A DNA stretch of 60,749 nt from Planctomicrobium piriforme (GTDB lineage Bacteria > Planctomycetota > Planctomycetia > Planctomycetales > Planctomycetaceae): contig CAMATH010000040.1 in assembly GCA_945860955.1 (NCBI GenBank), forward strand, positions 1 through 60,749, given 5' to 3'. The stretch's first letter is position 1. Each line of letters opens with the position of its first letter. Of the stretch, positions 11,661 through 20,022 are shown in pieces. Both the position numbers and the translations under genes were made by a program. Under the pieces are notes generated by a model that had not been told where the DNA came from, did not search any database, and was given only the letters and a program-made list of their open reading frames with translations.

Positions 11661-11890
11661 ATTTTCCCCAGGGAATGTCGGGCACGACGGAACTGGACTT
11701 CGGTCGGCATCGAACGGTTGACAGACGGCGGCCGACCGGAAATTGCGCTTGACTGGGGAGTTCTGATGGTTGACACCGGTCGCGCAAACCAGGGAACGCC
11801 ATCGATTCGCACCTGAGCGTCGTTCGAATTCACCTGCCGGGCGCGGCTCTCAACCCAAACTTTCTTGTCACCCCTCGTACCGCCGAAATA

Positions 11891-13178: not shown

Positions 13179-14234
13179 ATGCCCGACCCCACGTCCGATC
13201 GTCCCCCGCGCCGCCCCCGCTACCGTGGCAAAAACCCCCGCGCGTTTCACGAGAAATACAAGGAACTCGCACCTCAGCAGTATCCCGACGATGTTGCCAA
13301 AGTCATCGCCTCGGGGAAAACGCCCGCCGGTACGCACCGGCCCGTTATGCTGGATGAAATCCTGACGGGACTGACTCCCCAGGCGGGGGAAATCGCGGTC
13401 GATTGCACGCTGGGATATGGCGGGCACGCGAGTGAACTGCTGGCGGCGATTCAGCCCGGGGGCCGACTGATCGCGTTTGACGTCGACCCGATTGAACTGG
13501 AGCGGACGGAAGCCCGACTGCGTGGTCTCAACGTCCCTCCCGAATCCCTGCTGGTCCGGCGGATGAATTTTGCTGGCGTGGCGCAGGTGCTGGCGACGGA
13601 AGCCCCCGGCGGGGCAGACCTGCTGCTGGCGGACCTGGGGGTTTCATCCATGCAGCTCGACGACCCGACCCGGGGGTTCACGTTCAAGTCTGACGGCCCG
13701 CTCGATATGCGGATGAACCCGACACGCGGCCGGAGTGCCGCCGACCTGCTGCAATCGATCGACGAAGACGAATTGGCGGAACTCCTGGTGGACCATTCCG
13801 AAGAGCCACACGCCCGGGCGATCGCTGAGGCGATCGTGTCTGGACAAAGGAACCAGCCGGTCGATTCGACTCTGAGATTGCGCGCGATTGTCGCCGGCGT
13901 GATCGAGCGCAAGCGGTCGAACGATCCGGACGCTGTCAATGACGCGGTTCGGCGAGTCTTTCAGGCATTGCGGATCGCTGTGAACGATGAGTTCGGTGCC
14001 CTCGACGCGTTGCTGCGGAATCTCCCCTGGTGTTTGAAGCCTGGTGGTCGGGTGGCGATTTTGACGTTTCATTCAGGTGAAGACCGCCGGGTCAAACAGG
14101 CGTTCCGGTCCGGACTGCGTGAAGGGATCTATTCCAACGTGAGTGACGAGGTGTTGCGGCCGTCGGCGGAGGAACGCCGGTCGAATCCGCGGTGCGTGTC
14201 AGCCAAGTTGCGATTCGCGACCCGAGCCGATTGA
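13179..14234 (+). CDS. rsmH: 16S rRNA (cytosine(1402)-N(4))-methyltransferase RsmH
   Basis: RsmH (MraW) methylates N4 of C1402 in the 16S rRNA decoding site using S-adenosylmethionine. Family marks are HRPVMLDEIL, the SAM loop DCTLGYGGHASELL (near residue 74), ADLGVSSMQLDD, GPLDMRMN, the helical insert ending RVFQALRIAVNDE, and the late motif FHSGEDRRVKQAF (usual form FHSLEDRIVK). Length (351 aa from ATG 13179) is slightly over the usual 310, owing to an N-terminal basic extension rich in Pro and Arg. GTG 13137 is an alternative start. In most bacteria it sits in the dcw cell-wall cluster; here no mraZ, ftsL or mur gene is next to it, in line with the scattered dcw genes of planctomycetes. 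Confidence 0.93.
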   Translation: MPDPTSDRPPRRPRYRGKNPRAFHEKYKELAPQQYPDDVAKVIASGKTPAGTHRPVMLDEILTGLTPQAGEIAVDCTLGYGGHASELLAAIQPGGRLIAFDVDPIELERTEARLRGLNVPPESLLVRRMNFAGVAQVLATEAPGGADLLLADLGVSSMQLDDPTRGFTFKSDGPLDMRMNPTRGRSAADLLQSIDEDELAELLVDHSEEPHARAIAEAIVSGQRNQPVDSTLRLRAIVAGVIERKRSNDPDAVNDAVRRVFQALRIAVNDEFGALDALLRNLPWCLKPGGRVAILTFHSGEDRRVKQAFRSGLREGIYSNVSDEVLRPSAEERRSNPRCVSAKLRFATRAD

Positions 14235-14345
14235 ACCAGAGATCAGCCTGCCTCCGCTCGTAACGGACGCCGCTCGTGAACGGTCGCACCCGAGGGCAGG
14301 TTCTGTGTCGCCACTGGAAAAAAAGAATCTTAGCGTGACCAGAAT

Positions 14346-14362
14346 TTGGCACAGTTATTGCA
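14346..14362 (+). promoter_or_regulatory. Sigma-54 (RpoN) -24/-12 promoter
   Basis: TTGGCAC-N5-TTGCA fits the sigma-54 consensus (TTGGCACGN4TTGCW) at every position but one, with exactly 10 bp between the invariant GG and GC. It lies about 170 bp upstream of the DUF4114 protein start and in the same direction. An imperfect inverted repeat just upstream (CCTGCC...GGCAGG, 14249-14300) may be the rsmH terminator or part of an enhancer site. The 5' leader contains two small hairpin-forming repeats (about 14395-14428 and 14496-14510). Confidence 0.82.
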
Positions 14363-14530
14363 TTTCTCAAATTGCAGTGAAGTCACACGGTGATCGAAAC
14401 CGGTACTGCTGAAACACGAGCCGGTTCGAGTGAGTTGGGTGAAGACCCTGAATCACTACGGTTTTCTGCGAAAGACAGAAGCCGAATTTAAACAAGTCTC
14501 AAATCGAGACGACAGAAAGCGAGATTCAAA

Positions 14531-15559
14531 ATGAGAAGCGCACTGATTGCGACTGTGATTGCGACCATAACGATTTGTAGTACCACGGCTGAGGCGGGGA
14601 AGGTGTCGCCCGTTCAGTCTTCGGCCCGTCCGCTGGGACTGAAGACGGTCGCGCCGGTAATGATGGGTGCGACTGACGGACGGTCGAAGGCGTTTATGGA
14701 GAAATTTCTGCCCACCATGAACAAAGCGGTCGAACAATTGCTGCCCGAGGGGAAAGACAATCGCGGAAACGCGTTGGGAAACAAGAATGGCAAGTCCGAT
14801 GACAAAAAGTCAGACGACAAAAAAAATGAGTCTGGGAAAGGGAAATCGGGTTCGAGCAATGGCAAAAGCGATTCGGAAAAAGGAAATTCCCGATCGTCGG
14901 GTAAGGATTCAGACGAACAAAGCTCGCTCGGTCGAGCGATTGATCCTTCGCTGCTGAAGCTGGAATACGACTACCACGTCCGGGCGTACTTCGTCGGTGA
15001 AGGTGCCGGTTACCACAATGGCTTCGGCTTCTACACTTCGGACTACGACCCCAAACAGGGGATTCAGTCGACGGACGCCAAGTTGATTTTCCCGGATGCT
15101 TCCAGCTCGGCTTCTTATCTGGGGAGCGGCAAAGGGGAACGCAACGAAAAGGAGCCATTGCTGCCCGGCGACTTTGTGCAGCTCGGAAAGCTGAAATCCG
15201 GAACGCAGATCAACCCGTTCCTCGTCGCGGACGGTGCCAACGGCGGCAAGGACGTGTTCACCCCCTACGCCTCGAAGAACCCCGATGGCCTCCAGCACTT
15301 CAGTCTGCTGTCGGTCACCGCGATTCCCAACAGCCCTTACCTGCTGCTCAACATCGAAGACCTCCGCGGCGGTGGTGACAACGACTACAACGACCTCGTG
15401 GTCGCTCTCGATATCGGTGCCCGCAACGTGATGGGAATCACCGGTGCCGCCGTTCCCGCCCCTCCGGCCGTGTGGGGTGGTCTGGTGGCGTTCGGCTGGG
15501 TGGTGGTCGCCAGAGTCCGGGCTCGCCGCAATCAGGGTGCAGCGACCGCTCAGGTCTGA
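14531..15559 (+). CDS. DUF4114-domain secreted protein with PEP-CTERM/VPLPA-like C-terminal sorting signal
   Basis: A 342-residue protein with a signal peptide (cleavage near AEA/G, about residue 23), a Lys/Asp/Ser/Gly/Asn-rich linker at about 75-135, and a DUF4114 domain at about 145-300, including the Asp-rich core GGGDNDYNDLVVALD typical of this calcium-binding-like domain. From residue 308 it reads VPAPPA, a hydrophobic helix, then the basic cluster RVRARR close to the C-terminus. This tripartite end is how exosortase substrates of the PEP-CTERM and VPLPA-CTERM classes look. It has a sigma-54 promoter and its own terminator, so it is likely a single-gene unit. No exosortase is visible in the window. 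Confidence 0.8.
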   Translation: MRSALIATVIATITICSTTAEAGKVSPVQSSARPLGLKTVAPVMMGATDGRSKAFMEKFLPTMNKAVEQLLPEGKDNRGNALGNKNGKSDDKKSDDKKNESGKGKSGSSNGKSDSEKGNSRSSGKDSDEQSSLGRAIDPSLLKLEYDYHVRAYFVGEGAGYHNGFGFYTSDYDPKQGIQSTDAKLIFPDASSSASYLGSGKGERNEKEPLLPGDFVQLGKLKSGTQINPFLVADGANGGKDVFTPYASKNPDGLQHFSLLSVTAIPNSPYLLLNIEDLRGGGDNDYNDLVVALDIGARNVMGITGAAVPAPPAVWGGLVAFGWVVVARVRARRNQGAATAQV

Positions 15560-15614: not shown

Positions 15615-15658
15615 GCCGGCTGTGGTTCTCCGCGACACGAGACCACAGCCGGCTTTTT
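15615..15658 (+). terminator. Rho-independent terminator after the DUF4114 gene
   Basis: A perfect 12-bp stem, GCCGGCTGTGGT / ACCACAGCCGGC (15615-15626 and 15642-15653), is followed at once by TTTTT. It lies 55 bp after the stop of the DUF4114 gene. Confidence 0.88.
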
Positions 15659-17353: not shown

Positions 17354-17497
17354 CGCCGACGCAGTGGCCGAGCGGGATATCTGAATCGCCAACGTGAACA
17401 TGTTTTCACAATTGACACCCCGCGCGGCGGCAATCAGGATAGCGTCTCAACCTGTGGTCGACACATGGTTCGTTCACATTCTGGAGTGCCTATCTCG

Positions 17498-17887
17498 ATG
17501 GGAATGCAGGTCGTAAACACCGCGTTGTTGCAGTGCAGTTTCGGCGTGGCCCCCAGTCCCCTGGTGGTGTTGCCGTTGAATCGTGAAATGGTGTTCAATC
17601 AACCGGCCGCGAACATCATGGATCACATTCCGATGACGAACATCATGCCGTTCGGGGTGTGCAACTCAATTGCCAACCCAATGGTGGCGGCCGCGACGGC
17701 GGCGGCGCTGGGGGTACTCACGCCGATGCCGTGCATCCCGGTGACGCCTGCCCCCTGGGTTCCCGGGAGCCCGACGGTGCTGGTGGGAAACATGCCAGCG
17801 CTCAACGATTCGAGCATGTGCATGTGCAACTGGGCGGGAGTCATCAAGATCAACATGCCCGGCCAGTTTACGACGATGATTCCCTGA
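17498..17887 (+). CDS. DUF4280 PAAR-like spike-tip protein
   Basis: A 129-residue protein of the DUF4280 / PAAR-like family, beginning MGMQVVNTALLQCSFG. It has the family-typical repeated NIM motifs (ANIMDHIPMTNIMPFGVC), AAALGVLTPMPCIPV, WVPGSPTVLVGN and a Cys-Met-Cys cluster near the end. PAAR-like proteins cap the VgrG spike of type VI secretion or contractile injection devices and can carry effectors. No effector extension is present. I take ATG 17498, which matches the family start; ATG 17465 would add 11 residues. It converges with vgrG, the two stops being 11 bp apart. Confidence 0.83.
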   Translation: MGMQVVNTALLQCSFGVAPSPLVVLPLNREMVFNQPAANIMDHIPMTNIMPFGVCNSIANPMVAAATAAALGVLTPMPCIPVTPAPWVPGSPTVLVGNMPALNDSSMCMCNWAGVIKINMPGQFTTMIP

Positions 17888-17898
17888 CAGGTTGGGAA

Positions 17899-20022
17899 TC
17901 AGTTGATTTTGACGATTCCCCCCTTCAGGGTGAGCATTCCGTCCGCCAGGACGTCCACCAGCGGCGCCTTGGCGGTGAGTTTCGCCCCTCCCACGACGTC
18001 GAAGGTCGTGTTGGCCTTCATCACGATCTTGATCCCTTCGAGAGTGATCCCCTGGGTGTCGATCTTGATACTGTTGCCGCCAACCTTGAGCAGAATCTCT
18101 TTGGCCGCTTCCAGCGAACTCGCGCCCGCTTTGATGGCGATTTTCTGATTCCCCTGGGAAACCGTCAGTTCTTCATTTCCTTCTTTAATGGTCACGGTGC
18201 GGTTTTTGGTGATTTCGACCGTTTCGTCATTCCCGATCGTCACGACGTGGTTTTTCGCGATGGTGATTTTGCGTCCGCCATCCTTGGCGCTGCCATCGCC
18301 CCCAAACCCGATCTTGATCGTCTGATCTTTGCCAATCGTGATCGACTGATCCTTCCAGATGACGGTTTTGTGGCTCCCGTCTTTGGAGTTCTTGTTGCCA
18401 ATTGTGACCGACTGATTGTTGTGGATCACGATGGTCTGATCGCCGGCGTCTTTGACTTCCAAGCCGACCTTGAGAACGTCGTTGTTCTCGACGATTCTCA
18501 GGAAGTCGCGTTCGGCGTGGAAGTAGATTTCCTCCGCCCCCTTCTTGTCCTCGAACCGGAGTTCATTATAGGTCTCGTCGGTCCCCCCTTTGGTGGAATG
18601 AGTTTTCAGTCCCGATTTGGTTTGATTGTCGGGGAGGACATAAGGGGGCATCTGGTCGGCGTTGTACACCGCTCCCGTGATGATCGGCTGGTCGGGATCC
18701 CCCTCGAGAAAATCGACGAGCACTTCCTGCCCAATCCGGGGCAGGAAGACCGCCCCCCATTGTTTGCCCGCCCAGGTTTGCGAGACTCGAATCCAGCAGG
18801 AACTGTCCTGATCGAGTTTTCCCAGTCGGTCCCAATGGAACTGGACCTTCACGCGGCCGTATTTGTCGCTGTAAATCTCGTCCCCCTGCGGCCCGACAAC
18901 CACGGCCGTCTGTGGACCGTGAACCGTGGGTTTCACCGTCAACCGTTCCGGACGGAAAGGCGTCGCGCTGGGAATGACGCGGTGCTGGCTGACATAATCG
19001 AGATCGATGGTGGCCGCGCCACGCGAGCGCGTGATGTGCGTCTCAATTTCGTATCGCGACGCGACGATCAGGTATTCACGGTTCTGATCGTCACGATGAT
19101 GGTCCGCCAGTGTGAACAACCAACCGGCTGCCAGGCCGCGCGCATCCGAACGAAGTGAAACCTGTTCCGCTTGCGATTCCCAGGTCTCGACTCGAATCTT
19201 TGAAAAGTGTTCTCCATGTCCGCTCTTGCGAAAAGAGCCCGGATAATCAAAGATCTCCTGCGATCCTTGGGAGGGAGAGAGCTTGGATTTGAGGGTGACC
19301 GTAAGATCCGTCGCGGGGGTCTCAAAGTAGTAGTCCCTCAAGACCGCTTTCGCTGGCTGAAATTCACGCCAGGTCGCCCATTCGAAGACGGATTCGTCGC
19401 GTACCACATTGTCGCTGGGGGGCAGGAAGTAAATCGTGGCCTGCCCCTCGACCGGACTATGCGAATCGATCCCGTCGCACAGCACCAGAGTGTGCTTTTG
19501 CTCCTCGTGGATAAAATAGAAATAGATGCCCTCGTGTTCCATCAGACGGCTGACGAACTGGAAGGCGGTCTCCCGATACTGCACACAATATTCCCACGGT
19601 TCGTACGTCGCCGACAATCGCGATTCGAAATCGGAGAATCCCTGGTCGCGAAAAACCTGTTGGATGATAGCGGGAGTTGTCATGGATTGAAAAATCCGGC
19701 AATCCGCAGTCCGGGTGAGAAACCACAACCAGGGACGCAACGTCGCTCGATATTGATAGCGATGAGCGACAAACTCTCCCTGCTGACAACGGCTGACGAT
19801 CCCATGAAAAAAACGCACGCTGTCGGACTTCAGCGGGACCTTGATCGTCATGCCGCATCCCAGCACTTTGCTGAGATCGACATCGTGCTGTTCGCTGAGC
19901 AGTTCGACGTCGAATTCAAACGGTCGACCGAGTTCCTCGGTCCCCGTCATCGACCGGAGAACAAACGGATTCGAGCTGGCCAGCGGGCCCGAGAGGCTTA
20001 AAAAATCGACTGCAACTGGCAT
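17899..20022 (-). CDS. vgrG: Type VI secretion system tip protein VgrG
   Basis: A 707-residue VgrG: gp27-like N-terminal hub (LRSMTGTEELGRPFEFDVELL; RQGxSDF-like and YCVQYRETAFQFVSRLMEHEG segments are characteristic), a gp5-like OB-fold at about 385-470 (DKYGRVKVQFHWDR, WIRVSQTWAGKQWG, PRIGQEVLVDFLEGDPDQP), and a C-terminal beta-helix needle of short TIG/KIG/TIK repeats from about 540 to the end. No effector domain follows the needle. It is preceded by a TPR-methyltransferase gene only 7 bp upstream, suggesting co-transcription, and faces the PAAR-like gene. No tss sheath, baseplate or ClpV genes lie in the window, so this is an orphan spike pair. Confidence 0.92.
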   Translation of the reverse strand: MPVAVDFLSLSGPLASSNPFVLRSMTGTEELGRPFEFDVELLSEQHDVDLSKVLGCGMTIKVPLKSDSVRFFHGIVSRCQQGEFVAHRYQYRATLRPWLWFLTRTADCRIFQSMTTPAIIQQVFRDQGFSDFESRLSATYEPWEYCVQYRETAFQFVSRLMEHEGIYFYFIHEEQKHTLVLCDGIDSHSPVEGQATIYFLPPSDNVVRDESVFEWATWREFQPAKAVLRDYYFETPATDLTVTLKSKLSPSQGSQEIFDYPGSFRKSGHGEHFSKIRVETWESQAEQVSLRSDARGLAAGWLFTLADHHRDDQNREYLIVASRYEIETHITRSRGAATIDLDYVSQHRVIPSATPFRPERLTVKPTVHGPQTAVVVGPQGDEIYSDKYGRVKVQFHWDRLGKLDQDSSCWIRVSQTWAGKQWGAVFLPRIGQEVLVDFLEGDPDQPIITGAVYNADQMPPYVLPDNQTKSGLKTHSTKGGTDETYNELRFEDKKGAEEIYFHAERDFLRIVENNDVLKVGLEVKDAGDQTIVIHNNQSVTIGNKNSKDGSHKTVIWKDQSITIGKDQTIKIGFGGDGSAKDGGRKITIAKNHVVTIGNDETVEITKNRTVTIKEGNEELTVSQGNQKIAIKAGASSLEAAKEILLKVGGNSIKIDTQGITLEGIKIVMKANTTFDVVGGAKLTAKAPLVDVLADGMLTLKGGIVKIN

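Follow-up and report, generated by a model that had tools for sequence, protein, structure and literature searches.

In a planctomycete genome a gene for a secreted DUF4114 protein is most likely under the control of RpoN, the alternative sigma factor. The best reading of our analysis, which we regard as probable though well short of certain, is that the gene encodes a sigma-54-controlled matrix lectin that is sorted by an exosortase. It lies in a 60,749-nucleotide stretch of Planctomicrobium piriforme DNA (the window), which is contig C40 of an 8.4-Mb genome that is 98.9% complete. An earlier note on this DNA had described a TTGGCAC-N5-TTGCA sequence with exact GG-N10-GC spacing about 170 bp upstream of a secreted-protein gene. 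That observation holds: the element is real, at 14346-14362 on the forward strand with all 12 specified bases, and the measured distance from its end to the ATG at 14531 is 168 nt. The site, the gene, the tail, rpoN, the activator domains, the exosortases, the conservation and the fold similarity reported here were all computed. The features of the locus are as follows.

14346..14362, + strand: sigma-54 -24/-12 promoter element TTGGCACAGTTATTGCA, 12 of 12 specified bases
14363..14530, + strand: 5' leader; transcription expected to start near 14372 (inferred), giving an RNA leader of about 159 nt
14531..15559, + strand: gene for the 342-residue secreted DUF4114 protein (open reading frame, domain match, orthologue and paralogue)
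14531..14599, + strand: N-terminal hydrophobic segment, a probable signal peptide inferred from sequence (hydropathy; helix at residues 3-14 in the model)
14762..14929, + strand: low-complexity Lys/Ser/Asp-rich linker (mostly missing in the paralogue; low model confidence)
14936..15424, + strand: beta-sandwich, residues 136-298, with DUF4114 and a GGGDNDYND loop, like LecB-type calcium lectins
15452..15529, + strand: C-terminal sorting-signal-like tail of VPAPPAVWGG, hydrophobic helix and Arg cluster (sequence, hydropathy, model)
15615..15653, + strand: hairpin followed by TTTTT, a probable intrinsic terminator (fold -30 kcal/mol, z -3.2)

The DUF4114 gene and its lectin-like product

The domain assignment rests on a PF13448 (DUF4114) match of 45.6 bits, against a cut-off of 27, over residues 221-294. 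The gene is flanked by mraW/rsmH (PF01795) and a methyltransferase gene, and the C-terminus of its 342-residue product contains VPAPPAVWGGLVAFGWVVVARVRARRN. Among named genomes, relatives were found at one locus, in a Lac Pavin Planctomycetota assembly, and none was confirmed in viral contigs. Elsewhere in the window (17465-20022) a DUF4280 gene adjoins a VgrG-like gene with Phage_GPD and gp5 C-terminal domains, the two being on opposite strands; these neighbours may encode a spike pair of the type VI or contractile-injection kind.

An AlphaFold2 model of the protein, made with nine homologues, has a mean pLDDT of 72.5. Within the region of residues 141-300 most blocks reach 84-95, three lie at 66-76, and residues 280-282, within the loop, fall under 50. 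A renewed comparison of the Foldseek matches placed LecB-type calcium lectins, thrombocorticin among them, at ranks 1-15, with alignments of 110-117 residues that cover nearly whole chains and with Z scores of 5.2-7.9, which are middling values in that they lie under 8. The next rank scored Z 3.4, leaving the group alone at the top. As modelled, the DUF4114 region resembles LecB-type calcium lectins. What it shares with LecB, BclA and BC2L lectins (PDB 1ous, 2wr9, 2xr4) is the predicted fold, which spans almost the entire lectin chain, whereas sequence searches of the region against solved chains gave no match of weight and the planctomycete protein has an extra N-terminal region, a linker and a tail. 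A tie between DUF4114 and both LecB/BclA-type lectins and exopolysaccharide has been made in the accessible text of PMC9109919.

A sorting-type tail and the exosortases of the genome

The protein had been claimed to end in VPAPPA, a hydrophobic helix and an Arg cluster, and it does so, in the form of VPAPPAVWGG followed by the helix and the cluster. Residues 308-333 match the layout of exosortase signals; a signal-peptide-like start, a short motif, a hydrophobic helix and a basic end are all present as judged by sequence and hydropathy. When the whole genome was searched for VPxPxxxWGG as a DNA pattern, only two genes were found, this one and a DUF4114 paralogue on contig C3 with the same VPAPPAVWGG tail. 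One match with a mismatch is without the Trp codon and was rejected as a further tail.

The tail might be a mere membrane anchor, the promoter being real and the protein staying in the inner membrane facing the periplasm. A single hydrophobic helix with an Arg cluster would suit such a role, as would the finding that no NCBIfam or Pfam CTERM model is over its cut-off on the window tail (the best, MYXO-CTERM, gives 13.7 bits against 20). TIGR02595 and PF07589 are likewise under cut-off for the tails of the window protein, the paralogue and a homologue from another genus (genome G062). Control tails do pass, L042 and L055 in both models and L058 in TIGR02595 only, and hence the tail is not filed as PEP-CTERM. 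Also in keeping with an anchor, the window's contig has no exosortase gene, just as the earlier note had said of the window.

An exosortase, whose absence from the genome would have told against sorting, was nevertheless found there twice, as PF09721 genes of 210 and 116 bits on two other contigs. The exosortase on C11 has 324 residues and is over the general exosortase cut-off; its closest models are XrtD, XrtW and XrtA, each under cut-off, and its neighbours are a tyrosine autokinase and a frame with a weak likeness to EpsI. The exosortase on C26 has 529 residues, is over the Pfam cut-off and under the NCBIfam one (84 against 105.55), and weakly matches EpsI at its end. Near it, and so on a contig other than the window's, is a PrsT-like TPR gene (95.5 bits against a cut-off of 312.2).

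The distribution of the tail among relatives argues against a mere anchor. We searched 170 genomes of the family (the order-level search also covered 170) and found four close homologues with a VPxP-type tail, in three genomes. VPxP is kept across genera and the remainder of the tail varies, from VPAPPAVWGG to the VPLPSS that stands at the same place in the G062 homologue. Moreover, every genome with a close tailed homologue has an exosortase: PF09721 is present in all three, against one of seven tested genomes with tail-less homologues only, the other six being without it (one-sided Fisher p 0.033, relatedness ignored). This count leaves out the tail-less genomes G095 and G167, and also G034 and G047, two genomes with distant PEP-type tails, both of which have exosortases. 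There are two counter-examples, G148 with exosortases and a tail-less homologue, and G046 with an exosortase and no close tailed homologue. The genome co-occurrence and the VPLPSS in the corresponding position of a homologue from another genus support an exosortase-type tail, even though no CTERM model reaches its cut-off, and we consider a mere anchor rather unlikely.

A separate protein of the same genome, ice-binding-like and encoded on C48 (L042 15861-16739), has a classical VPEPST PEP-CTERM tail over cut-off; at least one exosortase target of the ordinary kind is thus encoded in the genome as well.

The probable promoter element and its matches in the genome

Within TTGGCACAGTTATTGCA the GG at 14348-14349 and the GC at 14360-14361 are ten bases apart. 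The perfect pattern occurs once in the whole window and in none of 100 dinucleotide shuffles of it; a shorter pattern with up to two mismatches is no commoner in the window than chance (58 found, 57.7 expected). The 8.4-Mb genome has only three perfect sites: one before the window gene, one before the C3 paralogue and one 94 nt before csrA. By genome frequency, the chance that a given start has a perfect site within 550 nt is about 1e-4. Two of the three stand upstream of the genes that alone carry the VPxPxxxWGG tail pattern. With up to one mismatch there are 30 sites in the genome against 26 for the reversed control pattern, and 23 of the 29 outside the window lie inside an open frame of at least 500 nt on either strand, the paralogue's among them. 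As near matches are no commoner than the control, weight can be given only to the perfect matches and their context.

Sigma-54-like sites in the genome also include a set of four loci (L001, L008, L010 and L009) before two csrA genes, a groEL-type chaperonin gene and cpaB. The first csrA site is the perfect one; those before the second csrA, the chaperonin gene and cpaB have one mismatch, and all four point in the right direction. In the accessible text of PMC12316311, csrA is reported to be sigma-54-dependent in a Pirellula strain.

The site of the paralogue, 288 nt upstream of its gene, is inside the 3' end of the preceding tyrosine-kinase-like gene. The kinase codons L-A-Q-F-L-H favour it, the chance of a perfect match given these residues being about 0.005. 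Five homologues of the kinase score 8, 9, 9, 9 and 11 of 12 at these codons, the last without the GG, and none has a perfect site. Four of the five are seen to be without a DUF4114 frame after them, and the followers of all five include none. Given these coding-derived near matches, the paralogue's site is the weakest of the four before close tailed DUF4114 genes, and on sequence grounds it may be a by-product of kinase coding.

This weakness is one of three points in favour of the view that the -24/-12 match in the window arose by chance and that a housekeeping or ECF sigma promoter drives the gene; the others are the similar numbers of near matches and control matches, and the failure to find an activator site. 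The rarity of perfect sites, three in 8.4 Mb, points the other way, as does a sigma-70 consensus scan of 14200 to 14531 (ECF promoters lie outside such a scan), which found no match. Further evidence comes from the homologues. The same-genus orthologue (L071) has a different open frame before the gene, by eye not rsmH, and its identity to the window is 144/168 over the leader, 13/17 over the site and 30/65 just upstream of the site, a drop that on sequence comparison is a conserved edge at the promoter. In the site itself, TCGGCACAGATCTTGCT, the GGCAC and TTGC cores are unchanged, and the distance to the gene is the same. In G062, where the homologue is in two pieces on two contigs, the site TTGGCACAGAACTTGCC matches at 11 of 12 bases, 511 nt before the start codon and past the end of an open frame. 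(That frame has a polysaccharide-export look by eye only, and was set aside as Pfam did not confirm it.) Because there are sites at the orthologue, at the homologue of another genus and, more weakly, at the paralogue, we keep to the reading of a sigma-54 promoter and judge a chance match improbable.

Site and tail in homologues

The best site within 550 nt upstream scores 12, 12, 10 and 11 of 12 for the close tailed homologues and 5-9 of 12 for nine tail-less homologues. Sites of at least 10 of 12 are thus found for four of four tailed and none of nine tail-less genes (one-sided Fisher 0.0014, or 0.018 when collapsed by genus, relatedness being otherwise ignored). The tail-less G108 C340, which has no upstream sequence, is omitted from the count, and G108 C315, a fragment with an unseen end and a score of 9, is outside the nine. 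For more distant DUF4114 proteins with PEP-type tails the picture is mixed, with weak sites or none: the scores are 7, 9 and 10 of 12 in genus g35, where the tails are VPEPSS, VAEPSS and VSEPSS, and 6 in G047, where the tail is VPEPAT.

In two of the three species of g35 (L058 and L059), GTGGAACG-N4-TTGC is kept about 239 nt upstream of the PEP-tailed DUF4114 genes, and may be one more sigma-54 promoter that serves a DUF4114 protein destined for sorting.

Least credible among the alternatives is that the tail is a GlyGly-CTERM-like signal for rhombosortase: VPAPPAVWGGLVA does have a GG at the start of the hydrophobic helix in the window protein, the paralogue and the same-genus orthologue, but no GlyGly-CTERM model matched up to E 10 (filters can drop weak matches) and the G062 tail keeps VPxP without the GG.

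The kinase locus of the paralogue

The paralogue is directly after glycosyltransferase and tyrosine-autokinase-like frames, and is followed after 384 nt by a frame on the same strand. The autokinase-like frame has a best NCBIfam match of 62.9 bits, under cut-off, with AAA_31 just over, and the Wzz-like frame beside it has no NCBIfam model match. At about 11727-11729 on the minus strand (L038, G000 C3) an in-frame stop lies between the Wzz-like and the tyrosine-kinase-like parts. Five relatives have one open frame each, of 732-815 residues. The stop represents a pseudogene, a split gene or an assembly error.

In G062 the homologue of the kinase gene is followed by an exosortase, and in G027 a relative is followed by a receiver-like frame without a Pfam match and then by a haem-NO-binding (HNOB) gene. 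HNOB genes are also seen at L142 201-737 (minus strand), near a relative of the kinase gene, and at L040 853-5286 (minus strand) on the C26 contig, with the exosortase and a large hybrid histidine kinase close by. As a lead rather than a result, such links point to a single exopolysaccharide/exosortase system whose parts are spread over several loci.

Sigma-54 regulators, leader and probable terminator

The genome was searched for rpoN as a refuting check on sigma-54 control, and the gene was found on C69 (PF04552, 213 bits). Fourteen of 22 PF00158 activator-domain matches score at least 188 bits; GAFTGA or GSFTGA is found in nine of these 14, and one of the other five was read in the wrong frame. 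Of the 14 activator proteins, 10 were scanned for PrsR, which the earlier note might have led one to expect, and none was over the TIGR02915 cut-off of 502.6 bits (best 392 bits). In the 300 nt upstream of all four sites TTTACA, the core of the PrsR box and the only part of it searched for, is absent on both strands. The same four 300-nt regions have no 7-mer in common and no 8- or 9-mer in three of four, and the comparison thus pointed to no upstream activator site. As PrsR is not over cut-off in the proteins scanned, TTTACA is absent, the tail is outside the models and its pattern is confined to two proteins, we do not claim a general parallel circuit in planctomycetes, and the idea is cut down to a two-gene set in this genome.

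In the 5' leader (window 14363-14530 against L071 3976-4143) the stems are identical and the loops changed. The fold z scores are -2.3 and -1.2, for two sequences from two species with no covariation. An Rfam search gave no match of weight (best E 0.28, far under the gathering score), and a known riboswitch or RNA family was therefore rejected. The leader is present in two of the four genomes of the genus, those of the window and its orthologue, and its kept stems and varied loops in two species make it a possible cis-acting RNA. Sequence like the hairpin at 15615..15653 is also seen, by eye, 3' of the orthologue; a consensus terminator scan with a loop limit of 8 did not list the hairpin.

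Discussion

If the gene does encode a sigma-54-controlled, exosortase-sorted matrix lectin, sigma-54 RNA polymerase would wait at 14346-14362 until a putative NtrC-type activator opened the promoter, and a single-gene transcript would presumably start near 14372 once that activator was active. The product would be exported by the Sec route and held in the inner membrane by the VPAPP tail until one of the two exosortases cut it, a predicted cleavage after which the protein would be passed to the cell surface or the exopolysaccharide. The LecB-like and presumably calcium-dependent domain may then bind sugars of the cell's own matrix, its putative ligand, and the lectin would act as a matrix cross-linker or a surface adhesin.

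In Proteobacteria the PEP-CTERM/EpsH system, which includes PrsK/PrsR/PrsT and a sigma-54 box, is set out in the accessible text of PMC1569441. It is alike in having a secreted protein that ends in a short, three-part tail, an apparently own transcription unit with a large upstream region and a -24(GG)/-12(GC) site, and an exosortase in the genome together with exopolysaccharide genes, which here lie beside a paralogue. The mean distance to the start codon is 71 nt there, in contrast to 168 nt here (PMC1569441). Unlike that system, the planctomycete one has no PrsR over cut-off among the 10 of 14 proteins scanned and no TTTACA, and its tail is outside the TIGR02595/PF07589 models. The planctomycete pair works like the proteobacterial kind rather than being a member of it. 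In the accessible text of Haft et al. 2006 (PMC1569441) the DNA box was found only in Proteobacteria, and the table there has dashes for Rhodopirellula baltica beyond EpsH.

In Aquincola tertiaricarbonis the PEP-CTERM gene pepA, which takes part in floc formation, has an RpoN1-dependent promoter (TGGCAC / CTGCTT), and its overexpression brought soluble exopolysaccharide down and bound exopolysaccharide up, according to the accessible text of PMC9850573. The likeness is an RpoN-type promoter before a gene with a sorting-type tail; the phylum and the passenger domain are different, and prsT adjoins pepA there (PMC9850573), whereas here the PrsT-like TPR gene is near the C26 exosortase and away from the window's contig. 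Myxococcus PilY1.1 also has DUF4114, for which calcium-dependent exopolysaccharide binding is proposed in the accessible text of PMC9109919; there it is a pilus-tip module, in contrast to the stand-alone secreted protein with a sorting tail described here.

The pairing of sigma-54 with a sorting tail is best known from a different bacterial phylum. Planctomycetota possess sigma-54 activators and sorted surface proteins. Among the matches listed in a literature search on the phylum, no title or abstract opening joins the two, and outside subscription papers none was found to join DUF4114 with PEP-CTERM or PEP-CTERM with LecB. PEP-CTERM and exosortase are absent from the accessible main text of a survey of sigma-54 regulons, published in 2025, whose scope includes Planctomycetia (PMC12316311).

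It is conceivable, if doubtful, that an ancestral tail-less lectin gene gained together a new class of exosortase-type tail (VPxPP/VPLPS) and a sigma-54 promoter, outside Proteobacteria. A signal, perhaps NO or oxygen, would then switch an exopolysaccharide-binding surface lectin via an activator unrelated to PrsR, in lineages where genes for a tyrosine kinase, an exosortase and a haem-NO-binding sensor are linked two at a time, in differing combinations.

Tailed and tail-less homologues, set side by side, offer a natural test of the tail's role. Should the more limited reading of a sigma-54-controlled, exosortase-sorted lectin be true, the coupling of sigma-54 to exosortase targets would have arisen, or would persist, in a second phylum, where activator, tail and passenger all differ.
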